Shown: positions 1 to 19,827 of the stretch, one piece after another
Position numbering within the stretch: position 1 is the first letter of the stretch
Layout of the letters: the number at the start of each line of letters is the position of its first letter
Assembly: GCA_031285205.1 (NCBI GenBank)
Contig: JAITWO010000046.1
Coordinates: 1-53,575, forward strand
Origin: Methanomassiliicoccaceae archaeon
GTDB lineage: Archaea > Thermoplasmatota > Thermoplasmata > Methanomassiliicoccales > Methanomethylophilaceae
DNA: 53,575 nt
Reading direction: 5' to 3'
Program-made: the position numbers and the translations under genes
The notes under the pieces: generated by a model
Told to the model about the DNA's origin: nothing
Seen by the model: the letters and a program-made list of their open reading frames with translations, nothing else
Databases searched by the model: none

Positions 1-416
1 ATACCTAACGACCTCTCAATGCCCTCGTCAACAACCGCTATCGCCGATTCCATCGTGTCCGGGTCGAAAAACTCGTAGAACATATCCACCGCCTGCCTTT
101 TCAGCAGCGGCATGTCGCACGGCGCCGTCATAACGAACTTACCGTTCATCGAATAAAGGGATGTGTGCAGATCGTTCATGAAATCCTTACCGGAAGTATG
201 GATCGTCTCGATCCCTTCCCTTTTAAGATATCTTTCCGTCTCCTTTGTGTTGTCGCTCACCGAGACCAATACCCTACTGATCTTTGATGATGATCGCAGT
301 GCGTCGACCACCCTCCTCACAACCGGTACGTCTCCTATCACCTGCATAGGCTTTTCAACACCGGAACTACCCATGCGCGTCCCTTTTCCGCCCGCATGGA
401 CAAGTGCCTCCATCAT
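1..416 (-). CDS. cobY: Adenosylcobinamide-phosphate guanylyltransferase CobY (partial, C-terminus outside window)
   Basis: Archaeal CobY transfers GMP from GTP to adenosylcobinamide phosphate, giving the AdoCbi-GDP used by CobS next door. Only the first 138 or so residues are present; the window edge removes the C-terminus. The N-terminus MEALVHAGGKGTRMG has the nucleotidyltransferase signature GGxGTRMG, and the later TAPCDMPLL is the acidic metal-binding region seen in MobA-like transferases. The start ATG at 416 overlaps the cobS stop in an ATGA arrangement, so the two are translationally coupled; the next ATG (413) would also work. It is the last visible gene of the cobD-cbiB-cbiS-cobS-cobY operon. 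The identification rests on these motifs and on the neighbours. Confidence 0.88.
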   Translation of the reverse strand, partial: MMEALVHAGGKGTRMGSSGVEKPMQVIGDVPVVRRVVDALRSSSKISRVLVSVSDNTKETERYLKREGIETIHTSGKDFMNDLHTSLYSMNGKFVMTAPCDMPLLKRQAVDMFYEFFDPDTMESAIAVVDEGIERSLG

Positions 417-1222
417 AGCATCACCGACATGATGATCAGGAACGTGAGAAGAACTGTTGCCCTTGTTATTTCGTTCGTTGCACCGAGGACGTCCCCGTTC
501 ACCATCCCGAAGTTCCTTTTTGCCGTTCGGCTCATGATGATCCCTGTGAGTATCGAGACGACCACGGATGCCGTCAGCAGGATGATGCAGTGGTCGGATC
601 CGGGCAGCGCGACCATGTCCGTGTACGTCCCCATGAGATGGATGAACACACCGAATGCCGCTATCAGCAGTATCGCCAACACCGTGGCGATGATCAATGA
701 TCCAACGGATGTGTTGCGCACACTGTTCCCCGCCATCCCGGTGCCCGGTTCCCCGAACGCCGCCGCGGATACCATCCCGACCTTTGCCAGAACTTCTGCG
801 GTGAACAGCAGCACCGCCATCCACGCCAGGAAAGGTATGGATGATGCCATGGTTATCGTCATAAGTATCACCATCAGCGCGAACGCCATCCCTCCGGCGC
901 CTATCCTTGAGTCTTTCAATGCCCTCAGATGGTCCTCTTTGGTTCCTGCGACCACCAAACCGTCCCCGACATCTATCGTCCCGTCGATGTGCAGGAAACG
1001 GTTGAACGCAAAGATGACGAAGAACGTTATCACGGCGGCGACCAACGGATCGACGAAATCGAACCGTGTGAGGAAGGTCATCATGACCGCGGCGATCAGG
1101 CCGTACAGCGCCCCCACGACCGGCACCATCCAGAACCTCCTGTCCATGGCATCCATGTCCTCCTGCCTGATATCCAGCCGGATCATCGTGAAGAACGAGA
1201 ACATTGCTTTCAGGGCGCCCAT
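413..1222 (-). CDS. cobS: Adenosylcobinamide-GDP ribazoletransferase (cobalamin synthase) CobS
   Basis: CobS is the membrane enzyme that joins AdoCbi-GDP to alpha-ribazole or its phosphate, the last assembly step of cobamides. The 269-residue protein has several hydrophobic segments and the family motif HIDGTIDVGDGL at residues 78-89, corresponding to the acidic LHLDGxxDxxDGL motif of the family. Length is normal. Its ATG at 1222 shares a base with the cbiS stop (TGATG), and its stop overlaps cobY. It therefore sits between the phosphatase that makes alpha-ribazole and the enzyme that makes its other substrate. Confidence 0.93.
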   Translation of the reverse strand: MGALKAMFSFFTMIRLDIRQEDMDAMDRRFWMVPVVGALYGLIAAVMMTFLTRFDFVDPLVAAVITFFVIFAFNRFLHIDGTIDVGDGLVVAGTKEDHLRALKDSRIGAGGMAFALMVILMTITMASSIPFLAWMAVLLFTAEVLAKVGMVSAAAFGEPGTGMAGNSVRNTSVGSLIIATVLAILLIAAFGVFIHLMGTYTDMVALPGSDHCIILLTASVVVSILTGIIMSRTAKRNFGMVNGDVLGATNEITRATVLLTFLIIMSVML

Positions 1223-2385
1223 CAGACCTCACCGTCGAACATCTTTGTATAAACTGATGACATGATACCGCCGACAAGGCCGCATATTATGTCATCCATG
1301 AACGGGCCGAGTTGTTTTATTACTCCCGGTTTATGGCGGTCGAAGCGGTGGAACTCGAATATCCCTCTCGTTCCGGATATGTACTGCGCAAGCTGCATCC
1401 CCATTATCTCATCCGCTATGAGATGTATCGGGTCCGTTTCGAACATGCCCTTGGGCATCGCGCATATCATATCCTTACTTCCCAGGCGGTCCAGTTGTAT
1501 CGCGCCCTGTATCAGCGACGAGACGTTGATGTCCTTCGAGTATGTTGTCATAAGGGAGCTGAACATCTTCCTGAGATCGTCCGCCCTCCATTCGGGGTTC
1601 GGATGATATATCTCCATCGCGGATTCCCATAATCTTTCTTCTGTTATTCCCATCTTTGAGAGCTGATCCATGAACGTCCCCATCTCCGGACGGTCGTCGC
1701 GTCTCAACAGCGAATCGTATACTGCATCCCTCACCGACCTTGCCAGTGATATCCCCAGTGATGTCCCGGTGCCGCAGTAGCTTTCCCGTTTGCCGCTTAT
1801 TGGTGATACTATGGCGACGGCATCGGATGTCGTTCCCGTCTCCTCATGTCCGAGCATCCTCATCGCGGCTGTTTTTGCCTCTGTCAGAACGATGAATGAG
1901 TTCACTTTAGCTGCGTCCGTGAGCGGCACAGGAGATATCGCGATGATGTTTATCGTCCCGATGGACGGCATCTTTCCCGCCCTTATCCTTTTCTCCTTCT
2001 CCAATGAGCGCTCGAGGCGTGCGTCCATATCATGGATCACATCACCGGCCGTCACCCTGTTCCCCAATCCGGCGGTGGCCACCGCTGTTGTCGTCACACC
2101 ATCGAATTCTGTATTCTTGATGGTTGTGACATATTCTATCTCGGCGGCGGTCATGAACCCCACTGTGCTCTTCGGTAGGTCCAGGTCCGTCCTCACCTTT
2201 TCAAGATCTCCCATGAAGTCCATCGAATCGTATAATTTGGGGACCTCCATTATCATTATCGTATCAGATACTGCGACACCTCTGTTCATCACAGCGGAGC
2301 TCATGATCTCCATCCTCTCCTTAAGTCTGATCACCGCCACCGGAGTGCCGCCGGAATGAAGTATCTTAACTTCCGCCAGATTCAA
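1222..2385 (-). CDS. cbiS: CbiS-type bifunctional adenosylcobinamide amidohydrolase / alpha-ribazole-phosphate phosphatase
   Basis: The 387-residue protein fuses two salvage enzymes. Residues about 1-235 look like CbiZ, which cleaves the side chain of scavenged adenosylcobinamide or pseudocobalamin to adenosylcobyric acid; visible family features are ATAGLGNRVTAGD (103-115), EAKTAAM (169-175) and GTTSDAVAIV (184-193). Residues about 245-387 look like CobZ, the archaeal alpha-ribazole-5'-phosphate phosphatase, with LIADEIMGM and GPFMDDIICGL. The same fusion is known as CbiS in Methanopyrus kandleri. The start appears to be TTG at 2385, overlapping the cbiB stop (TTGA). It implies that this organism remodels imported corrinoids. 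Confidence 0.85.
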   Translation of the reverse strand: MNLAEVKILHSGGTPVAVIRLKERMEIMSSAVMNRGVAVSDTIMIMEVPKLYDSMDFMGDLEKVRTDLDLPKSTVGFMTAAEIEYVTTIKNTEFDGVTTTAVATAGLGNRVTAGDVIHDMDARLERSLEKEKRIRAGKMPSIGTINIIAISPVPLTDAAKVNSFIVLTEAKTAAMRMLGHEETGTTSDAVAIVSPISGKRESYCGTGTSLGISLARSVRDAVYDSLLRRDDRPEMGTFMDQLSKMGITEERLWESAMEIYHPNPEWRADDLRKMFSSLMTTYSKDINVSSLIQGAIQLDRLGSKDMICAMPKGMFETDPIHLIADEIMGMQLAQYISGTRGIFEFHRFDRHKPGVIKQLGPFMDDIICGLVGGIMSSVYTKMFDGEV

Positions 2386-3374
2386 AATATCACCCTGAAC
2401 AGACTCATTAATGCATCCTCCATGTAAATCTGTATGTGTATCCCTATGAACATGTAAAGCGGGACCGTGACGATCGCCAAGAACATGAATGCCGCGATCT
2501 CCACCATCTTATAACATCTGGAGATGTCCCTTACAGAGGGCATTTCGCCAGTGCCCATCACGTACACGTCCTTCTTCTCCATCCTGAACCCCAGGGCCCC
2601 GGCGGCGGCCGTCATCGGCCATCCGCTGTTGGGGCTCGGTGTCTTATTATGTTCGTAAAATGCGGCAGATATCGCTTTGCGGGGGCTCCCGCCGACGAAC
2701 AGCGACGCCAGCGCTATGAACAGTATGGACATCCTTGACGTAACGTAACCGAGAACATCATCGAATTTGGCAGGGAAGTACCCCAGGTCGCCGTATTTCT
2801 CGTTCAGGTAGCCCCACATCGCATCCATGAGGTTACAGCATCTGAACATCCATGCGCCGAATATCCCGAATATGCCGAAATAGAATGTCGGGGAGCATAC
2901 GCTGTCCGCATAGTTCTCCGATACCGTCTCAGCGCAGGATGACGCTATGTGCTCCGCATCCATTCCCTTCGTGTTGCGGCTGACGATCATCTGGACCTTC
3001 GAGGCCGCATCTTCCGTATTCCCGGCCTCCAGGTCATTCTGTATCGGTCCGCAGTGCTTCCTGAAGGAGAACACCGCGAAGGTCTGCTTGAATATCAGCG
3101 CACATATTATTATCCATAACATTTCGCCGACCCCCATTCCGGTATCGCCTATGTTTCCCATGTGGCCCAGCTGCGTGCGCAGAAGTGTGAGCACCGTCAA
3201 CGTCACGAACGCAAATATGAAAAGTACCAGCAGATATGAAAGGAGACCTTTCATTATCGTTGACCGTCGGCCCTTCCTCTTTATCCTCTTGTCCAGCCCT
3301 CCCAACATGTTGCCCATCCATCTCAGCGGATGGACGGCATTCGGGAATTCACCTATCACTGCATCGATCAGCAA
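2382..3374 (-). CDS. cbiB: Adenosylcobinamide-phosphate synthase CbiB/CobD family
   Basis: CbiB is the membrane protein that attaches aminopropanol phosphate (or a related side chain) to adenosylcobyric acid. The N-terminal LIDAVIGEFPNAVHPLRWMG matches the family pattern of a hydrophobic stretch followed by G(D/E)xPNxxHPxxWMG, and several more membrane segments follow. The only ordinary start codon in the open frame is TTG at 3374. About 15 further codons, mostly hydrophobic, lie upstream before an in-frame stop at 3423, so the true start may use CTG or ATT and the N-terminus is uncertain. It lies directly downstream of the CobD decarboxylase that supplies its substrate. Confidence 0.88.
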   Translation of the reverse strand: MLIDAVIGEFPNAVHPLRWMGNMLGGLDKRIKRKGRRSTIMKGLLSYLLVLFIFAFVTLTVLTLLRTQLGHMGNIGDTGMGVGEMLWIIICALIFKQTFAVFSFRKHCGPIQNDLEAGNTEDAASKVQMIVSRNTKGMDAEHIASSCAETVSENYADSVCSPTFYFGIFGIFGAWMFRCCNLMDAMWGYLNEKYGDLGYFPAKFDDVLGYVTSRMSILFIALASLFVGGSPRKAISAAFYEHNKTPSPNSGWPMTAAAGALGFRMEKKDVYVMGTGEMPSVRDISRCYKMVEIAAFMFLAIVTVPLYMFIGIHIQIYMEDALMSLFRVIF

Positions 3375-3417: not shown

Positions 3418-4530
3418 TCACTTCACCCCGTTGATTACCTTTTTGACCGCTTCCATGAACATCTCATTCCGTTCGCGGTCCTTGACGCAGAATCTTACGT
3501 AACTCTTGAATTCGCTGCCGAACGAACCGCAGTCCCTTATCATGATCTTCTCGAGGAGCATCTTGCTCTTGAATTCGGGGACGGACATGCCTATGTCATT
3601 CAGTGAATTGAAGAAGAAGAACGAATCCGTCATCCCTATCTTGAATCCTATATCATTCAGCTCCCTGTGCATCTGCTTCGCTTCGCTGCTCATCATCTCC
3701 GCAGCCTTCGTCACATGTCCCATGTGGTCCTTTATCAATGACGATGCGACCTGCTGCTCGATGTGCCCCACATTCCATGTCATCCTTACTTTGTCCATAG
3801 CGTTGATGATCCCCTCTGACGCAAATCCGAACCCTATCCTTATCCCGGGTATGGCGAACGATTTCGTCAGCGACCCGATCACCAGAAGGTTGTCGTACCT
3901 GTTCACTTCGGCGGCGCAGCTGACCTTCCTGTGCGACGGCACGAGTTCAAGAAGCGTCTCGTCCAGGAACACCAATATATTGCGGTCGGCGCATTGTTCC
4001 ACGATGTCGAGTATCTTCTCCTTCGGCTCTATCCTTCCGGTGGGGTTATTGGGGTTGCATATGTAGACCGCCTTCACGTCGTTCAGGTTTGCCAGCAGCT
4101 CATCAGTATCGATGCGGAGGTCGTGGGACTCGTAGAGCAGCATCTCCCGTACGGACGAACCGGCTATCCTGCACTGATGGGCGTATTCAGCGAACGAGGG
4201 ACGCATCACTATCGCCTTATCCCCCTTACCAAGGAATGTATTGGGGAACATCCTGATGAGATCGGACGAACCGGCACCGACGATAGTGTTCTCCGGCCTG
4301 ACGTTGAAATGGTCCGCCAGCACGCCCTTTAGTTCTGTTGAGTTGTCATCCGGATAATGATCGACCCCCGAGACTGCATTCTGTATTATCTCCGGGATGC
4401 ACTTCGGCGGCCCTAAAGGGTTCAGGTTATGACTGAAGTCCTCCACGCCGGCGAGTTTCCATGCCTGCCCGCCGTGTACTGTATCCGAGATCCTGAGGAG
4501 GTCCTTCCTTATCACGTCGCTGATGTTCAT
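3418..4530 (-). CDS. cobD: CobD-type PLP-dependent L-threonine-O-3-phosphate decarboxylase (HisC-like fold)
   Basis: A 370-residue fold-type I aminotransferase-like protein. It shows NPNNPTG (159-165), an LDET segment and the PLP lysine in GSLTKSFAIPG (Lys223). The opening HGG...FSHNLNPLGPP is typical of CobD rather than HisC. CobD makes (R)-1-amino-2-propanol phosphate, which CbiB attaches to the corrin ring; the gene order supports that role. It is the first gene of the corrinoid assembly operon and is preceded by a composite promoter/operator at 4564-4594 that also occurs before btuF. A histidinol-phosphate aminotransferase is less likely given the neighbours. Confidence 0.85.
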   Translation of the reverse strand: MNISDVIRKDLLRISDTVHGGQAWKLAGVEDFSHNLNPLGPPKCIPEIIQNAVSGVDHYPDDNSTELKGVLADHFNVRPENTIVGAGSSDLIRMFPNTFLGKGDKAIVMRPSFAEYAHQCRIAGSSVREMLLYESHDLRIDTDELLANLNDVKAVYICNPNNPTGRIEPKEKILDIVEQCADRNILVFLDETLLELVPSHRKVSCAAEVNRYDNLLVIGSLTKSFAIPGIRIGFGFASEGIINAMDKVRMTWNVGHIEQQVASSLIKDHMGHVTKAAEMMSSEAKQMHRELNDIGFKIGMTDSFFFFNSLNDIGMSVPEFKSKMLLEKIMIRDCGSFGSEFKSYVRFCVKDRERNEMFMEAVKKVINGVK

Positions 4531-4563
4531 CCTTTGCGCGGTATGGTGTCAATGGACTTAAAC

Positions 4564-4594
4564 TTGGCTATTACATCCATCCATATATCCAACG
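4564..4594 (-). promoter_or_regulatory. Composite TATA/operator element upstream of cobD
   Basis: On the plus strand this 31-base stretch reads as a degenerate inverted repeat TTGGCTATTACATCCA (4564-4579) followed by TCCATATATCCAACG (4580-4594 with its preceding T). It matches 24 of 31 positions of 7899-7929 upstream of btuF, in the same orientation relative to the gene. The ATATAT core would place a TATA box about 55 bases before the cobD ATG at 4530, with the repeat lying between TATA and the start region, where a repressor would block initiation. The binding factor is unknown. Confidence 0.55.
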
Positions 4595-4644
4595 TCTTAT
4601 CAATGATTGGTCGGACTTCCTTGCCGCTGCCTTTCAACATCCTA

Positions 4645-5442
4645 TCAGTGCTTGGACCTGAATCTCTTCGGTATTATGTACAACTCGCCGTCCTGGTCGA
4701 AACCAACGGATGCGTTCACGCCGTATACCTCCTCGATGAGCTCCGATGTGATCACTTCCTTCGGTGGGCCGATCTTCACTATCTCGCCCTTCTTCATTAT
4801 GATGCAGAGGTCGCAGTACCTTGCCATTAACGAAATATCGTGTTCGGCGACGAATATGGTCATGTCCTTTTTCACCATGTACTGCAGATATTCCATCACC
4901 TCCAGCTTGTACTTCATGTCAAGGTGCGACGTCGGCTCATCCACCAGCATCAGCCTCGGTTCCTGGACGTATGCTTTGGCGATAAGCACCCGTTGTCTCT
5001 CACCGCTGCTCAGTGTGTGCAGAAGCCTCCCCGCTAGATGGTCGACCCCGAACTTCTTCATTGCGTCATCCACTATCGCCTCGTCCTCTTGGGACTCCCA
5101 CCACAATGTGCTGATATGGGGATAACGGCCCATCATCACCGTGTCCAGAACGGTCAGGCCGAAGCTTGTCTTGAGTTCCGCGGGAACATTCGATATCTTC
5201 TTTGCCATCTCTGCGTGTGTGGATCTTGTGATGTTCTCGCCGTCTATGAGCACATCCCCTGATGTTATCGAGTGCATCCTGTTGATGCATTTCATCATTG
5301 TCGTCTTCCCGCAGCCGTTCGGACCTATCAGGCCGACCAGCAATCCGGAGCCTATCCTGTACGATACGTCCTTCACTGCCCGGAACCCGTTCTCGTATGT
5401 TTTGTTAAGTCCTATCAGTTCAAGCAGAGGGACCTCAGCCAT
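4645..5442 (-). CDS. btuD: ABC transporter ATP-binding protein, BtuD/FecE family (corrinoid import)
   Basis: A 265-residue ATPase with Walker A GPNGCGKTT (40-48), signature LSSGERQ (144-150), Walker B LMLVDEP (164-170) and the switch histidine in VAEHDIS. It resembles the ATPases of iron-siderophore and vitamin B12 importers. The start overlaps btuC by 8 bases. Placement between the btuC permease and the corrinoid assembly operon points to corrinoids as cargo, although the sequence alone cannot exclude a chelated metal. Confidence 0.85.
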   Translation of the reverse strand: MAEVPLLELIGLNKTYENGFRAVKDVSYRIGSGLLVGLIGPNGCGKTTMMKCINRMHSITSGDVLIDGENITRSTHAEMAKKISNVPAELKTSFGLTVLDTVMMGRYPHISTLWWESQEDEAIVDDAMKKFGVDHLAGRLLHTLSSGERQRVLIAKAYVQEPRLMLVDEPTSHLDMKYKLEVMEYLQYMVKKDMTIFVAEHDISLMARYCDLCIIMKKGEIVKIGPPKEVITSELIEEVYGVNASVGFDQDGELYIIPKRFRSKH

Positions 5443-6565
5443 CGTACATCCTCCCTTTCTTCATCAGAAGGAATGCGAACAGCGGGACGCCTATTAGCGC
5501 TGTGATAGCACCCACGGGCAGTTCCGACTGCTGTATGGCCATGCGCGCTATGAGGTCTGCAATGAGCATCATGAAACCTCCCATCGCTATGGATGCGGGG
5601 AGCACCAGTCTGTGGTCACCGCCGAGTATCATGCGGCATATGTGCGGTACCACCAGTCCGACGAATCCTATTATCCCGACGAATGCTACGCATATCGCTG
5701 TTATTATCGACGCGCATATCATCATGCCCCTGTTGAATCTCTTCACGTTGAGACCTGCCTGTTTGGCCTGGTCCTCGCCCAGCAGCACAAGGTTCAGTTC
5801 CTTTGCCCATAACAAAGCAAGGAATGACATCACGAACACAGGGATCACTACAAGCCACGCTTCGCTCCAGTTCACGTTCTGGAACGTCCCGTAGAGCCAG
5901 AAGACCGCGTTCCGTAACCGGTCGCCCGAGAATGCAAGTGTCAGAGTCTGCATCGCTGAGAACAGGAACCCTACGACCACTCCTGCCAGCACATAATTGG
6001 TCGACGAGCCGCCGGCCTTCTCTCCGATGAACATGGTTATCGTCAATGCCACCATGCCGCCGATGACCGCAGCTATGGGTACGACGAACGACGATCCTAT
6101 GGCAAAACCGAAAACGGTGCCTGTGGATATCGCCAGGACCGCCGCAAAACCGGCGCCGGACGATACTCCCGTTATGTACGAGTCCACCAGAGGGTTCCTT
6201 ATGATCGCCTGATATATGCAACCGGCTATCGCCAACCCTATCCCGACCGCAATGGCAACGATCGCCCTCGGCATGCGGTAGTAGTAGACAGTCCTCTCGT
6301 CCACTGTCCTGACGCCGTTCTGCAATGACGATATCATCGCGGATAACGCATCGGAGACGGACATCGTACCGGCAGAACCGAGCGCGAGTGCCACTAAGAA
6401 CATGACAAATGTCACCGCAATGCCCGAGATTACTATTGCCAGCAGCCTTCGTTTCCTTTTTGCGGTCAAAGAGATGTCCCTGCCGTCGCTCCTTCTCACG
6501 TATAGTGCGGATAGCAGAACGACGGCAATGACCGCCGCCACAAGCAGTAGCAACACGATGTCCAA
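5435..6565 (-). CDS. btuC: FecCD/BtuC-type ABC transporter permease
   Basis: A 376-residue polytopic membrane protein of the FecCD family. It contains YYYRMPRAIVAIAVGIGLAIAG, split here as RMPRAIVAIAVG and LAIAGCIYQAI, and then NPLVDSYITGVSSGAGFA, all characteristic of BtuC/FhuB/FecD permeases. It would form the translocation channel for the cargo delivered by btuF. The first codon is TTG at 6565, preceded by a purine-rich GAGGAAAG that could serve as ribosome binding site; the gap to btuF is 9 bases. An extra charged segment (residues about 25-40) precedes the core. Confidence 0.86.
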   Translation of the reverse strand: MDIVLLLLVAAVIAVVLLSALYVRRSDGRDISLTAKRKRRLLAIVISGIAVTFVMFLVALALGSAGTMSVSDALSAMISSLQNGVRTVDERTVYYYRMPRAIVAIAVGIGLAIAGCIYQAIIRNPLVDSYITGVSSGAGFAAVLAISTGTVFGFAIGSSFVVPIAAVIGGMVALTITMFIGEKAGGSSTNYVLAGVVVGFLFSAMQTLTLAFSGDRLRNAVFWLYGTFQNVNWSEAWLVVIPVFVMSFLALLWAKELNLVLLGEDQAKQAGLNVKRFNRGMMICASIITAICVAFVGIIGFVGLVVPHICRMILGGDHRLVLPASIAMGGFMMLIADLIARMAIQQSELPVGAITALIGVPLFAFLLMKKGRMYDG

Positions 6566-6574
6566 GTTCTTTCC

Positions 6575-7837
6575 TCACTTCGATGCTTCTTCCAAGAGTG
6601 CCGCAAGCGCCTCGACTATCCTCGGACCTGCCCGCAGGAACTTGTCGCCGTCCTCGCCGTACAGGGTTATCAGTTCTACGCCCTTCCATGTGTCCCCTGT
6701 GGCGTTGGGCCAGCCCGGCAGGTGAGAGCCTGTCTGGCCAAGGATGGTTTTTATATCTGCCCCGCCAAGGTCCTCATCGGCTATGAATATTACTATCTCC
6801 GGCGTCATGGTCGTCATGTACTCTTTGTCCATGATCCATCCGGAATCGGGGAACATGTTGACCACACCCAGCCTCGATATGATGTCGTTGATGAACGTGT
6901 CCTGACCGATCCCTGCCACGTACCATTCTCCGCCGAACAATATGACCGTCTTCTTTCCGTCCAGACCGGCGATGGCGGCACTGTGATCCCTCAGGAGTTC
7001 TTCGAGATCGCCCTTCATCCCATTTATCGTCTCATTGGCCTTTGCATCGTTCCCTGTGGCCGCGCCGGTCATCCAAATGTTCCTGTACACGTCCTCAAGC
7101 GTGAACGCCTTGTATAGTGATATACATCTGATGCCTGAACTTCTGAGCGAATTCAAAAGGGCATCGTGGTTGTCCTTCTCACCGACGACCAGGTCCGGAT
7201 CGTATGAGGATACTATCTCCGCCGTCGGAGGGGTCTGATAGAATCCCCATTCTTTGCTTATCCCTCTTGTCACGACCTCCGCCGGATAGTTGCTGTATGC
7301 ATCCGCCGCCACTAACGAATCTAATTTTCCGGTCTTGCACAATATCTCCGTGCCCACTGCTGATAAGGATACGATCTTTTCGCTGGTGCCGTTGAATACG
7401 TCCTTGCCCATGGCATCAACGCATGGCAGCAACGGCTCATTCCCTGCCGCCGTCAGTGCCACGGCCGGATATGTGCCTTTGGAAAGGGTCATTGATGATT
7501 CGGAATATGGTATCTTCTTCCATCCGGATCCGACGGAGAATGTCCATAGGCCCCACGATTCTCCGGTACGTGCCGATATTCCGTCAACGGATGTTATGAA
7601 ATCATCGGAATATGTTATTTTTATATCTTTCTTCTCAAATGCGGCCGACACCGCATCATCTAATTCTACTCCCTCCGTTTCGACCGGCATCCAATATCCC
7701 GTGTAATCTCCGAAGTCCAGAAGGACCCCCTCCTCGGACTGCGGCTCCCCTTTCTGCAATACGAAATATGCGGTAACGGACACCGCCACCACCATTACGG
7801 CTATCGCGATCGCAGCCATCATAGTTTTCGTGACCAT
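6575..7837 (-). CDS. btuF: Membrane-anchored corrinoid-binding protein: transcobalamin-like domain fused to BtuF-type domain
   Basis: A 420-residue exported protein. Residues 7-27 are a single hydrophobic anchor. Residues about 37-130 (with SWGLWTFSVGSGWKKIP and LSKGTYPAVALT) resemble the DUF4430/transcobalamin C-terminal beta domain. Residues about 150-420 look like a periplasmic-binding-protein type 2 domain of the BtuF/FepB kind, opening with EKIVSLSAVGTEILCKTGK. The protein should capture corrinoid outside the cell and pass it to btuC/btuD. The extra domain is unusual for BtuF and could act as a lid or a second ligand contact; that role is inferred. A TATA/operator element and a second palindrome lie upstream (7852-7929). 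Confidence 0.8.
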   Translation of the reverse strand: MVTKTMMAAIAIAVMVVAVSVTAYFVLQKGEPQSEEGVLLDFGDYTGYWMPVETEGVELDDAVSAAFEKKDIKITYSDDFITSVDGISARTGESWGLWTFSVGSGWKKIPYSESSMTLSKGTYPAVALTAAGNEPLLPCVDAMGKDVFNGTSEKIVSLSAVGTEILCKTGKLDSLVAADAYSNYPAEVVTRGISKEWGFYQTPPTAEIVSSYDPDLVVGEKDNHDALLNSLRSSGIRCISLYKAFTLEDVYRNIWMTGAATGNDAKANETINGMKGDLEELLRDHSAAIAGLDGKKTVILFGGEWYVAGIGQDTFINDIISRLGVVNMFPDSGWIMDKEYMTTMTPEIVIFIADEDLGGADIKTILGQTGSHLPGWPNATGDTWKGVELITLYGEDGDKFLRAGPRIVEALAALLEEASK

Positions 7838-7851
7838 TTAATTCACCCTAT

Positions 7852-7866
7852 TGGATGATACATCCA
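7852..7866. promoter_or_regulatory. Perfect palindrome TGGATG-ATA-CATCCA in the btuF leader
   Basis: A perfect 6-base inverted repeat with a 3-base spacer lies 15 bases upstream of the btuF ATG. A second copy of the core, GGATG-AAT-CATCC, is at 7901-7913, and a degenerate copy is upstream of cobD at 4564-4579. The symmetry and repetition suggest an operator for a dimeric regulator. Confidence 0.5.
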
Positions 7867-7898
7867 GCTCCCTGTAGGCACGCATTGCTTATAATCTT

Positions 7899-7929
7899 TC
7901 GGATGAATCATCCAACCATATATCCAACG
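7899..7929 (-). promoter_or_regulatory. Composite TATA/operator element upstream of btuF
   Basis: It contains GGATGAATCATCC (7901-7913) followed by ACCATATATCCAACG (7915-7929). The last 14 bases are identical to those upstream of cobD. Read toward btuF, the TATA-like core ATATAT comes first and the inverted repeat next, about 70-90 bases before the ATG. The divergent exporter starts at 7972, so a bound factor could affect both directions. Confidence 0.55.
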
Positions 7930-7971: not shown

Positions 7972-8973
7972 ATGAGCGGGGAGCACGAATATCCTGTTGT
8001 AGCCGAAGGTCTCAGGAAGACATTCAGACACACGAGAAGGTCCGGCCTGCCTGATAAGCTGGCTGTCGACGGCGTCTCGTTCAACGTTCGGAAAGGGGAG
8101 ATATTCGGCCTTCTCGGACCCAACGGCGCAGGGAAGACGACAACGATCAAGATGCTCTCCACTCTTTTGATACCTGATGAGGGAAGCGTCCGTATATTGG
8201 GGATGGACGGCATCAAAGATGTGAAGAACGTGCGGCAGAGGATCAATCTCGTCTCCGGGGGGGAAAGGGGGTTGTACTACAGGCTAACGGGACGCCAGAA
8301 TCTGCGGTTCTTTGCAAACCTTTACGACATCGCCAAAGTAGGGCAGGAAGCGCTCATCGACAAACTGCTTGATATCGTCGGATTGACGGAAGCGGCGGAC
8401 ATAAAGGTAGAGGATTACTCACGCGGGATGAAGCAGAGGATGCATATCGCCAGGGCACTGGTCAACGATCCGGAGATATTGTACCTTGATGAGCCCACCA
8501 TCGGCCTTGACCCTGAGATAGCGAGGGACGTAAGGTCATTGATAAGGAAACTTGCAGGGTCCGGCAAGACGATACTGCTCACTACGCATTACATGTTCGA
8601 AGCTGAAGAATTATGCGACCGCATAATGATAATCTCCAAAGGACGTTCCGTGGGATACGGAACGGTGGCAGAATTGAAGAAAATGGTACCGGATACGAAC
8701 ATCATAGAGGTGGTGACGAACGATGACCCCCATGATACTGTCGCGAAGCTCTCGTCCGAGCATTTCATACAGCACGTGAACACGGAACGCATCGCCGGGA
8801 GACACTGCACCCGTATACAGCTGAAGGACAGGACAGACCTGCTTTCCTATCTTGACACTGTGTTCTCAAAATACGGGATAAGGAAGATAGGGTACGACGA
8901 GCCGACACTTGAGGACATCTACATATCGTTGGTGGGCGGCGAAGGTCAAGAGGACGGCGGGCACCACCGATGA
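7972..8973 (+). CDS. ABC-2 type exporter ATP-binding protein (DrrA-like)
   Basis: A 333-residue ATPase with Walker A GPNGAGKTT (49-57), a signature YSRGMKQR, Walker B ILYLDEPTIGLDP and a C-terminal extension typical of DrrA/CcmA-like exporters. The open frame extends upstream to 7855, but the segment before MSGEHEYPVV has no coding character and contains the TATA box, so 7972 is preferred. The stop overlaps the next gene (ATGA). With the two permeases it forms an efflux system; the substrate is unknown. It is divergent from btuF across the corrinoid operator region. Confidence 0.9.
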   Translation: MSGEHEYPVVAEGLRKTFRHTRRSGLPDKLAVDGVSFNVRKGEIFGLLGPNGAGKTTTIKMLSTLLIPDEGSVRILGMDGIKDVKNVRQRINLVSGGERGLYYRLTGRQNLRFFANLYDIAKVGQEALIDKLLDIVGLTEAADIKVEDYSRGMKQRMHIARALVNDPEILYLDEPTIGLDPEIARDVRSLIRKLAGSGKTILLTTHYMFEAEELCDRIMIISKGRSVGYGTVAELKKMVPDTNIIEVVTNDDPHDTVAKLSSEHFIQHVNTERIAGRHCTRIQLKDRTDLLSYLDTVFSKYGIRKIGYDEPTLEDIYISLVGGEGQEDGGHHR

Positions 8974-17212: not shown

Positions 17213-17971
17213 TTATTTTGTGAACCTTCGTATGTTCGCTATTGCATCATCCGTCGGCAGCGGATCGTTGGTGTCCTTACCGATGGTGCACACGAATATG
17301 CACCGCCCACAGGGCGACCTGCCCTGGCTTCTCAGCACTGCCGAGTATTCCACGCATTTCTGCTTATCCGTTATCTTTTTCGGGTACATGGAGGATGCCA
17401 CCGCTCCCTGTGGGCATTCGTCCACGCATCTCATGCATATGGTGCACAACTGCTTTTCCATCGGTTTCCCGGAAGGTAATTCGGCAGTTGTTATCACTGA
17501 CGTGAATCTTATCCGGGGGCCGTTCTTTTCCGTCAGCAGCATATTGTTCAGACCGAATGTCCCGAACCCTGCGAGATATGCCGCATGGCGGTGAGAGAAG
17601 AACGACGACGGGTCCTTCCTGAGGCCGCTTATCCCCTGATATCCGTCCCTTGAGACGTATATGGCCGCGTGACCCGTCCCGTGGATCTCCATCGCCATCC
17701 TCTGCGCAGCGAGGTCCAGCATCAGGTTCACCTGCCTGTAGTGCTCCGCATAGAACGGGGACGGGGCGGTCGCCAATATGGTCTTTTGGACCGGGATCCC
17801 GATGACCATGACGGAACGTGCACCTTGCATAAGTGATGACGGCCTTTCGCATTCCAGTATGATCTTACTGACCATCGCATCGGTGTTCCACGCATCCGCA
17901 TCCGCAACGCCGATATCAACGATGCCTATCGACCTTGCCGTCGCTCTTATGCGCTCCATCATATCGTTCAT
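17213..17971 (-). CDS. QueG-like 4Fe-4S protein, paralogue 1
   Basis: A 252-residue protein resembling the core of epoxyqueuosine reductase-like proteins. It has an N-terminal flavodoxin-like/corrinoid-region pattern (MQGARSVMVIGIPVQ, SFFSHRHAAYLAGFGTFGLNN) and ferredoxin cysteines CTICMRCVDECP followed by CGRCIFVC. It is shorter than QueG (about 350 residues) and lacks its C-terminal repeat region. QueG binds cobalamin, so a corrinoid-dependent reduction is possible but unproven. Its ATG overlaps the stop of its paralogue upstream. Archaea generally make archaeosine, so queuosine synthesis is an unlikely role. Confidence 0.75.
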   Translation of the reverse strand: MNDMMERIRATARSIGIVDIGVADADAWNTDAMVSKIILECERPSSLMQGARSVMVIGIPVQKTILATAPSPFYAEHYRQVNLMLDLAAQRMAMEIHGTGHAAIYVSRDGYQGISGLRKDPSSFFSHRHAAYLAGFGTFGLNNMLLTEKNGPRIRFTSVITTAELPSGKPMEKQLCTICMRCVDECPQGAVASSMYPKKITDKQKCVEYSAVLRSQGRSPCGRCIFVCTIGKDTNDPLPTDDAIANIRRFTK

Positions 17972-18738
17972 GGCAGCGACCCGTACCTTCGTATGTTCGC
18001 AACCGCCTCATCCGTCGGCAACGGGTCTGCGGCATCCGCCCCTACGGGGCACACGAACGTGCAGCGAGCGCACGGCGATATTGCATTGTCCCTGAGAATT
18101 GTGGCACGGTCCAGGCATCTTCTCTTCTTCGTTATCCCGTTCGGATAAAGCTCGGATGCCGTTGCGCCCTCAGGACATTCGTTCACACATCTCATGCATT
18201 TGGTGCACAACTGCTTTTCCATCGGCTTCCCGAAGGGCAATTCCGCTGTTGTGATAACTGACGTCAGCCTTACCCGGGGGCCGTTCTTTTCCGTCAGTAA
18301 CATATTGTTCATGCCGAACGTTCCCATTCCTGCAAGATATGCGGCATGACGGTGAGAGAAGAACGATGCCATCTGCCTTCTCAACTCTTCATTCCACTGA
18401 TACCCGTCCCTTGAAACGGAAATGGCCGCATATCCCTCGATGTGCAGTTCCATCACCACCCTCTGTGCAACGATGTCCTCCGTTATGCCCACCGTCTTGT
18501 TATGCTCTGAGTAGAATGTCGACGGCGATGTTGCCAGTATCGTTCTCTGTACCGGCATCCCTATCACTATCACGGAACGCGCACCTTGCATGATCGATGA
18601 CGGCCTCTCGATCTTCGGTGTGATCTCCCTTACAAAATCATCGGCCTCCCACGCGCCGGCGTCGGCAACGGCCATATCGGTTATTCCCATTGACCGTGCA
18701 ACGGCCCTCACCCTCTCCCAAAGCGCATCGCCAGCCAT
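17968..18738 (-). CDS. QueG-like 4Fe-4S protein, paralogue 2
   Basis: A 256-residue tandem paralogue of the preceding protein, alike along its whole length (MQGARSVIVIGMPVQRTILA, SFFSHRHAAYLAGMGTFGMNN, CTKCMRCVNECPEGA, CARCTFVCPVGAD). All predicted cluster cysteines are kept in both copies, suggesting both are functional. The ATG at 18738 is chosen because TTTTAAATC lies about 27 bases upstream; an in-frame codon at 18759 would leave no room for a promoter. An HxlR regulator is encoded just upstream in the same direction. Confidence 0.75.
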   Translation of the reverse strand: MAGDALWERVRAVARSMGITDMAVADAGAWEADDFVREITPKIERPSSIMQGARSVIVIGMPVQRTILATSPSTFYSEHNKTVGITEDIVAQRVVMELHIEGYAAISVSRDGYQWNEELRRQMASFFSHRHAAYLAGMGTFGMNNMLLTEKNGPRVRLTSVITTAELPFGKPMEKQLCTKCMRCVNECPEGATASELYPNGITKKRRCLDRATILRDNAISPCARCTFVCPVGADAADPLPTDEAVANIRRYGSLP

Positions 18739-18811
18739 GATGTCACCTGATGATAACATGAAGATGATTTAAAAGGGAAATGGTTTGAGACGGCCGTTCC
18801 TTCAGATCGGA

Positions 18812-19171
18812 TCAGTATGGGCATGCGCTGCAGTCATGCGCGCCGCATTCCTCATTCTCGATCTGCCACTTCAGCGCCCACTCCTTGACGGTCTTTATCG
18901 CCATGATAAGTTCTATGCCTCCGTCCGTGAGCTTGTACTCGCTCTTGAGCGGTATGGTGGATGCATCGACTATCCTTTGGATGAGCCCTTCCTGCTCCAG
19001 TTCCTTCAGGCGCTGCGACAGTATCTTGGGGGTCACCTCCATCAGGGTGTTCTTCAGTTCCGAGAACCTCCTCATCTGTCCGCTGCCCTTGTAGAGTTCG
19101 AGAAGTATAAGGAAAGTCCACCTCTTTGCCAGGTAATCCATTGTTCTGTAGACGGTGCAATCGTGATTCAT
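18812..19171 (-). CDS. HxlR-family transcriptional regulator
   Basis: A 119-residue winged-helix protein with the HxlR pattern: an N-terminal cysteine (NHDCTVYRTMDYLAKRW), then RFSELKNTLMEVTPKILSQRLKELEQEGLI as the recognition region and SEYKLTDGG. The C-terminus adds CGAHDCSACPY, so redox or metal sensing through cysteines is plausible. The start codon lies in a perfect 16-base palindrome (19169-19184), and a TATA-like region is at about 19195-19205, indicating a leaderless autoregulated gene. The adjacent QueG-like Fe-S proteins are likely targets. Confidence 0.88.
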   Translation of the reverse strand: MNHDCTVYRTMDYLAKRWTFLILLELYKGSGQMRRFSELKNTLMEVTPKILSQRLKELEQEGLIQRIVDASTIPLKSEYKLTDGGIELIMAIKTVKEWALKWQIENEECGAHDCSACPY

Positions 19172-19656: not shown

Positions 19657-19827
19657 GTGGATGGATGTGTAATCCAATATAAATAACTTGTTCATGAACA
19701 AATGTAGTGCCATGAAGTATCTCGTTGTTGACGGAGATGTTCATCATACCTGTGACGCGATCGAAAAATGCAAACATTAATGAAAAACTATGTTGTTTCG
19801 GGTTGCGTGACAACTTTTAATGGGTTA

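Follow-up and report, generated by a model that had tools for sequence, protein, structure and literature searches.

The stretch of DNA analysed here, which we call the window, comprises 53,575 nucleotides of contig JAITWO010000046.1 (assembly GCA_031285205.1) from a Methanomassiliicoccaceae archaeon, a termite-gut metagenome-assembled genome (MAG) of the Methanomassiliicoccales. Members of this order make their living by corrinoid-dependent methyl transfer and are among the sources of methane from ruminants and termites. Two adjacent units on the minus strand, a btuFCD-like uptake operon and a cobinamide-salvage operon (cobD, cbiB, cbiZ-PgpA and cobS), are each preceded by a short dyad element, which is the subject of this work. 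The genes concerned are as follows.

413..1222, minus strand: cobS (Pfam CobS, E 1.5e-36)
1222..2385, minus strand: cbiZ fused to a PgpA-like domain (Pfam CbiZ, E 2e-45; PgpA, E 1e-8)
2382..3374, minus strand: cbiB (Pfam CobD_Cbib, E 4e-75)
3418..4530, minus strand: cobD, threonine-phosphate decarboxylase-like (best NCBIfam model CobD, E 7e-71, below the curated cut-off; adjoins cbiB, cbiZ and cobS)
4645..5442, minus strand: btuD-like ATPase (Pfam ABC_tran)
5435..6565, minus strand: btuC-like permease (Pfam FecCD, E 6e-86)
6575..7837, minus strand: btuF-like substrate-binding protein (Pfam Peripla_BP_2; NCBIfam BtuF weakly, below cut-off)
7972..8973, plus strand: DrrA-like ABC ATPase, divergent from btuF and sharing its operator region (Pfam ABC_tran, DrrA1-3_C)

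The identity of BtuF rests on fold family and context, not on an equivalog model, and the closest named relatives of cobD are found in Methanomassiliicoccales MAGs, including Candidatus Methanomicula labiotermitis. The fusion of CbiZ (adenosylcobinamide amidohydrolase) to a PgpA-like domain perhaps supplies a missing phosphatase step of nucleotide-loop assembly.

A dyad shared by the cobD and btuF promoters

The 31 bases at 4564–4594 (upstream of cobD) and at 7899–7929 (upstream of btuF) are identical at 24 of 31 positions, with the final 14 all matching and a common orientation to the gene, just as a first-pass annotation of this DNA had described them. When both intergenic regions were shuffled by dinucleotides, the best 31-mer match averaged 17.4 with a maximum of 22, and 0 of 2000 shuffles reached 24. 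Searched with up to 3 mismatches, TTGGATATATGGNTGGATG occurs in the window at the cobD and btuF places alone (0.04 expected); genome-wide it is exact at these two places alone, with five more occurrences at 3 mismatches. The shared 14 bases include an accessory half-site, TTGGAT, which lies 12 bp upstream of the dyad and recurs in relatives. The same annotation had ascribed an inverted repeat of the type GGATG-n3-CATCC to both promoters and a perfect copy, TGGATG-ATA-CATCCA, to the btuF leader. The perfect copy is present at 7852–7866, and the upstream btuF copy departs from TGGATGN3CATCCA by 1 mismatch, but the dyad at cobD, read in gene orientation as TGGATG-TAA-TAGCCA, is imperfect.

The putative operators, or boxes, and their associated promoter elements are listed below. 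Scores are those of profile R1, which was trained on 44 sites from other genomes of the genus, with the source genome excluded, and then run on the source genome.

4557..4562, minus strand: probable cobD TATA element TTTAAG, downstream of the operator (from comparison of cobD promoters)
4565..4579, minus strand: putative cobD operator, the imperfect dyad (R1 14.9 bits, E 0.0015 in the window)
4587..4592, minus strand: accessory half-site TTGGAT, 12 bp upstream of the cobD operator (also in relatives L038, L039 and L180; not in L040)
7852..7866, minus strand: second, perfect putative btuF operator TGGATGTATCATCCA (R1 16 bits)
7889..7894, minus strand: probable btuF TATA element TTATAA (GATTATAAGC, GATTATATGC and CATTATAAAC in the btuF promoters of the source genome, G001 and G003)
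7900..7914, minus strand: upstream putative btuF operator TGGATGATTCATCCG, upstream of TATA (R1 15.6 bits)
7922..7927, minus strand: accessory half-site TTGGAT, 12 bp upstream of the upstream btuF operator (from the sequence)
19662..19676, plus strand: further putative operator TGGATGTGTAATCCA (the 19658 site), followed by TATA-like TATAAATA, without a clear target gene (R1 14.8 bits)

Within the window, the cobD, btuF and 19658 sites score 14.8–16 bits and the next distinct site 7.0.

To place the dyad within the promoter, we compared the cobD promoter with those of four relatives (L038, L039, L040 and L180), all of which keep the operator upstream of cobD. Across the five promoters a conserved block around ATGGATGGATGTAAYARCCA is followed within 2–4 bases by a TATA-like element, TTTAAG in four and TTATAT in the fifth, and CGTTGGAT lies upstream of the block in four of the five. 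Further afield, cobD promoters show variants, among them GGGATGAATCATCCA and AGGATTAATAATCCA. The ATATAT that the first-pass annotation had taken as the TATA-like core is found in the source genome alone and is replaced in the other four (GATGCATGG, GATGTATGG, GACGGAATGG); on this footprinting the earlier promoter geometry was rejected. Because TTTAAG or TTATAT follows the dyad, the cobD site is placed upstream of TATA, over the region of the B recognition element (BRE). In L040 the upstream half-site is gone and the dyad is retained. These footprints indicate that the functional unit is the 15-bp dyad, accompanied by the accessory half-site at 12 bp upstream, an offset that recurs at three other boxes of the genus (L192, L193 and L196).

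At btuF, the perfect dyad is 48 bp from the first box and falls ~28 bp past TATA, with 14 bp left to the ATG. It is kept as TGGACGCATCATCCA in G001 and G003, 27–28 bp after a conserved TTATA, and the upstream dyad is lost or degraded in both. Placement between TATA and start, previously proposed for a repressor site in both units, therefore holds for the 7852–7866 copy alone, the cobD and upstream btuF boxes lying upstream of TATA. TATA elements and start codons were assigned by eye or by simple rules, and the genomes are MAG drafts.

Enrichment of the box and its target genes

The core operator is 15 bp, TGGAT-N5-ATCCA, with the extended form GGWTGGAT-N5-ATCCAWCC. As a control for enrichment, we counted identical half-sites at spacings 6 to 30. 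There are 10 copies of the core in the source genome, 61 across 8 genomes of the genus and 538 across 61 genomes of the family, compared to 0.8, 7 and 133 per control spacing, respectively, giving Poisson p values of ~1e-8 for the source genome and ~5e-36 for the 8 congeners. A reversed-pattern control was dropped; the reversed word is rare everywhere, and because distant Thermoplasmatota also exceed this control it is too lenient. In a set of 44 sites chosen on the ten fixed bases alone, the free positions are also dyad-symmetric, with G before and C after the core and an A/T-rich centre. Additionally, second half-sites at 48–49 bp were observed 9 times versus 0.35 expected per offset, and box pairs 48–49 bp apart with TATA between them occur at btuF and at several other promoters.

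Profile R1 returned 9 sites in the source genome (E up to 0.25), eight of which lie at corrinoid genes or FecBCD/BtuCDF-type uptake operons and are spread over 5 contigs. These are btuF (two sites), cobD, the region between cbiC and cbiD, where a single box serves both directions, a CobQ-like gene, two corrinoid-protein genes and a FecBCD-type operon; the ninth is the 19658 site. The CobQ-like target is read from a gene cut by a contig end, and in the FecBCD-type operon the permease and ATPase are recognised and the binding protein is assigned by position. Exact core matches inside unrelated open reading frames (ORFs; C12, C20 and C38 in the source genome, and L169, L172 and L200) were taken as background, and none of the three in the source genome is among the R1 matches.

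Sites across the genus are mostly intergenic and adjoin corrinoid or tetrapyrrole genes. Targets in synthesis include CbiC/CbiD, CbiJ-containing operons, CbiA, Met8-HemA and a CobQ-like synthase with a cysteine-rich N-terminal domain, while the others are BtuF-like proteins, ~15 corrinoid-protein loci, a CobW-like GTPase, NifH-NifD fusions and ABC exporters. ABC ATPases similar to the one divergent from btuF adjoin boxes in several relatives, and in G016, of the same family, a box lies at ChlI/ChlD adjoining a CobN-sized gene. The targets in a closed genome of sister family f2 are met8-hemA-hemB with cbiT/L, cobT, btuFCD, cobQ and a corrinoid protein, and this recurrence makes the regulon look order-wide.

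The spacing enrichment, the R1 targets and the conservation of the cobD and btuF boxes in relatives all support the dedicated archaeal corrinoid regulon predicted by the first-pass annotation; the element is neither absent from relatives nor scattered at random over the genome. The operator also reaches further than had been thought: it is carried by genes of biosynthesis and of corrinoid proteins, by CobW-like GTPases, by CobN-associated ChlI/ChlD and by nitrogenase-like genes. Judged from sequence, the element is very probably the operator through which a transcription factor governs a corrinoid/tetrapyrrole regulon throughout the Methanomassiliicoccales. Several observations pull the other way: one half of the cobD dyad is degenerate, the 19658 site lacks a clear corrinoid target, the box promoters of a heavy-metal ATPase (L185) and an alcohol dehydrogenase (L221) are not obviously corrinoid-related, and the related genomes are not independent samples.

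Two groups of box-associated genes deserve mention in their own right. The NifH-NifD fusions (L171:4351-7924, L183:3160-5368, L184:769-4367, L192:1047-3258 and L153:2791-4956) have a NifH part that is CfbC-like, below cut-off, and are accompanied by a separate NifD-like gene; the L171 copy adjoins cbiA and btuFCD. They may represent a nitrogenase-like step in corrinoid or F430-type metabolism. The heavy-metal P-type ATPase near boxes at L185:3203-5952 (G004) carries an HMA domain and could provide a metal link of the regulon.

Promoter geometry and proposed control

Within the genus, the distance from box to TATA, the latter called by consensus, tracks gene class. The TATA centre lies at +16 or +17 from the box centre in NifH-NifD and BtuF-like promoters and at +23 in most corrinoid-protein promoters. 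In CobQ-like promoters TATA lies at −16 where the start is clear, that is, with the box between TATA and ATG. An archaeal protein bound over BRE/TATA or the start site is expected to repress, and a site further upstream can activate.

Most likely, the factor would sense corrinoid sufficiency and shut off uptake, salvage and synthesis. In the source genome its regulon would comprise btuFCD, cobD-cbiB-cbiZ-cobS, cbiC and cbiD, cobQ, a further uptake operon of FecBCD type and the two corrinoid-protein genes. Where uptake and salvage are controlled, the dyad appears to abut BRE/TATA (TATA centre ~+13 to +17 from the dyad centre), and with this placement and the second btuF dyad near the start, a bound dimer should block transcription factor B (TFB) and polymerase. 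The dyad of corrinoid-protein promoters would sit 6–7 bp farther upstream (+23); bound there, the factor might act as an activator and may support corrinoid-protein expression. On the expectation stated above for archaeal sites, this 6–7 bp shift between uptake and corrinoid-protein genes may encode opposite responses. A weakness of the +16/+23 position code is that its TATA elements are guessed from consensus and not anchored to mapped starts. The sequences show where the box recurs, its targets and its placement, whereas the promoter elements, the sign of control (repression in the first-pass annotation) and the ligand (corrinoid or cobalt in that annotation) are inferred. Position-dependent, dual-mode repression or activation is known for the archaeal regulators TrmBL1, SurR and Ptr2, whose operators also lie at varied positions relative to BRE/TATA. 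In contrast, their operators and ligands are different and they belong to unrelated protein families.

Candidate regulator and alternative explanations

Among the neighbours of boxes examined in the genus, no DNA-binding-protein gene consistently adjoins them. In a sister family, ATGGATGGATTATATATCCATCCAT lies between the TATA and ATG of a gene encoding a 320-residue winged-helix protein with DUF4443 and DUF2111 domains. PH0730-like_N and CggR_N domains score above cut-offs in P0001 and in the DUF4443-DUF2111 protein of the source genome, and 70 of the 71 genomes of the order encode a homologue. Among sampled genomes, DUF2111 was present in all 27 from the order and in none of 167 from other Thermoplasmatota; it also occurs in M. 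jannaschii and M. acetivorans. The palindrome recurs at the DUF4443-DUF2111 promoter in families f2, f3, f5 and f6, with constant arms and a changing centre, and in most genomes outside f1 it lies between the TATA and ATG of the gene; there, a score of 14 or more is reached by 17 of 22 such genes, and the site is degraded in another 3. The 194 Thermoplasmatota genomes hold five mismatch-free 21-bp palindromes, all of them at this promoter, and a palindrome with its most perfect copies at a factor's own promoter is the usual mark of autoregulation. Of the relatives with a solved structure, PH0730 of Pyrococcus horikoshii (PDB 2P8T, DUF4443 family) is the closest; it shares the winged-helix N-terminus and DUF4443-like region (phmmer E 6e-17). 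Its chain, however, has 200 residues, the match stops before DUF2111, and its depositors label it a hypothetical protein. The literature searched yielded no paper mentioning DUF2111 or DUF4443.

We consider the DUF4443-DUF2111 protein the best candidate for the regulator, with the case evenly balanced. Within the genus its promoter has lost the box (L262 in the source genome; also L258, L260 and L277), and its conserved neighbours are an AtwA-like gene and others not tied to B12; it could therefore be a target or a methanogenesis regulator. More tentatively, DUF4443-DUF2111 proteins might form a new family of methanogen transcription factors that sense corrinoid (or tetrapyrrole) status. Depending on the palindrome-to-TATA distance, they would repress uptake and synthesis and activate the corrinoid proteins of B12-dependent methyl transfer, being autoregulated in most of the order with the loop lost in the gut genus.

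There is a substantial chance, a little short of even, that another protein reads the box: a 194-aa DUF4443-only paralogue, the HxlR protein encoded at 18812-19171, or an unlinked factor. Paralogues with DUF4443 alone are likewise common throughout the order (in G023 one directly precedes a btuF gene), the HxlR gene is near the 19658 box, and the DUF2111 gene of the source genome has no box of its own. However, the box is absent from every DUF4443-only gene examined, HxlR was seen near a box in the source genome alone, and the most perfect palindromes are those of the DUF4443-DUF2111 promoter. An AsnC/Lrp-type gene (L222, G048) was also considered as regulator and rejected, its helix-turn-helix (HTH) region matching NirDL and pointing to a siroheme-decarboxylase-like enzyme. 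As separate observations, DUF4443-only winged-helix paralogues (L264, L265, L267, L268 and L269) lie near BtuFCD clusters in G023, G028 and G041, with no box of their own. L222 (3073-4041), an AsnC/NirDL-type double-HTH protein of a sister-family genome, has a box at its promoter, which hints at a co-regulated siroheme branch.

It is unlikely, although the prospect has some weight, that the same operator answers to another signal, such as cobalt, siroheme, F430 or methylotrophic state, with B12 genes as one branch. The presence of hemA-hemB-met8, NifH-NifD (related to the F430 enzyme CfbC), corrinoid proteins and a heavy-metal ATPase among the targets would suit such a signal, as would the AtwA-like gene across a shared intergenic region from the box and the occurrence of DUF2111 in M. 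jannaschii and M. acetivorans. In contrast, the targets are mainly genes of corrinoid uptake, salvage and late synthesis, and no cobalt importer (cbiMNQO) was seen beside a box, although no systematic search for one was made.

That the dyads act as RNA hairpins in a 5' leader, whether riboswitch-like or by occluding the start codon, is very improbable. The 7852–7866 dyad would fall within the transcript, close to the btuF start, and a 6-bp stem could fold there, but many boxes lie upstream of TATA and should escape transcription, and the single cbiC/cbiD box serves both directions. The bacterial cobalamin riboswitch, which controls btu and cob/cbi genes by corrinoid level, is an RNA aptamer, whereas the element described here is a DNA dyad found also upstream of TATA. 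It was rejected as an explanation, an Rfam scan of the window at gathering thresholds having returned two tRNAs alone and no cobalamin aptamer. To our knowledge, Archaea generally lack recognised cobalamin riboswitches. The system as a whole appears to work like a transcription-factor regulon.

The probability that the similarity arose by chance, by duplication of a promoter from one operon to its neighbour, or as a general promoter element is next to negligible: the btuF and cobD operons are adjacent and TATA-like A/T runs are common, but the spacing control, the unlinked corrinoid genes in this and other genomes and the shuffles speak against it, and ~10 copies per genome are too few for a general promoter element.

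A palindromic CBL-box upstream of archaeal cobalamin genes, with a hypothetical B12 regulator, was reportedly described in some archaea by Rodionov et al. in 2003 (J Biol Chem 278:41148). By that account the two would resemble each other as palindromic DNA signals at cobalamin genes, and TGGAT-N5-ATCCA may or may not share its consensus; no paper naming the CBL-box was found in the literature searched. As far as we know, the Methanomassiliicoccales were not yet known in 2003, and we know of no link between DUF4443-DUF2111 and the CBL-box. Now that the operator is defined, its targets listed and a candidate regulator named, archaeal B12 sensing becomes experimentally tractable. The box also gives functional leads for unannotated genes, among them nitrogenase-like fusions, secreted proteins and transporters, and DUF4443 and DUF2111 gain a testable role.

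Two further features accompany the 19658 site. At 19662-19790 the box and TATAAATA are followed by a tiny Cys/His-containing ORF (MKYLVVDGDVHHTCDAIEKCKH), possibly a small metal- or cofactor-related peptide. Downstream of the box, on the minus strand at 17213-19171, the HxlR-type regulator gene lies with those of two paralogous 4Fe-4S proteins, which by eye look like QueG-type (B12-dependent) reductases.

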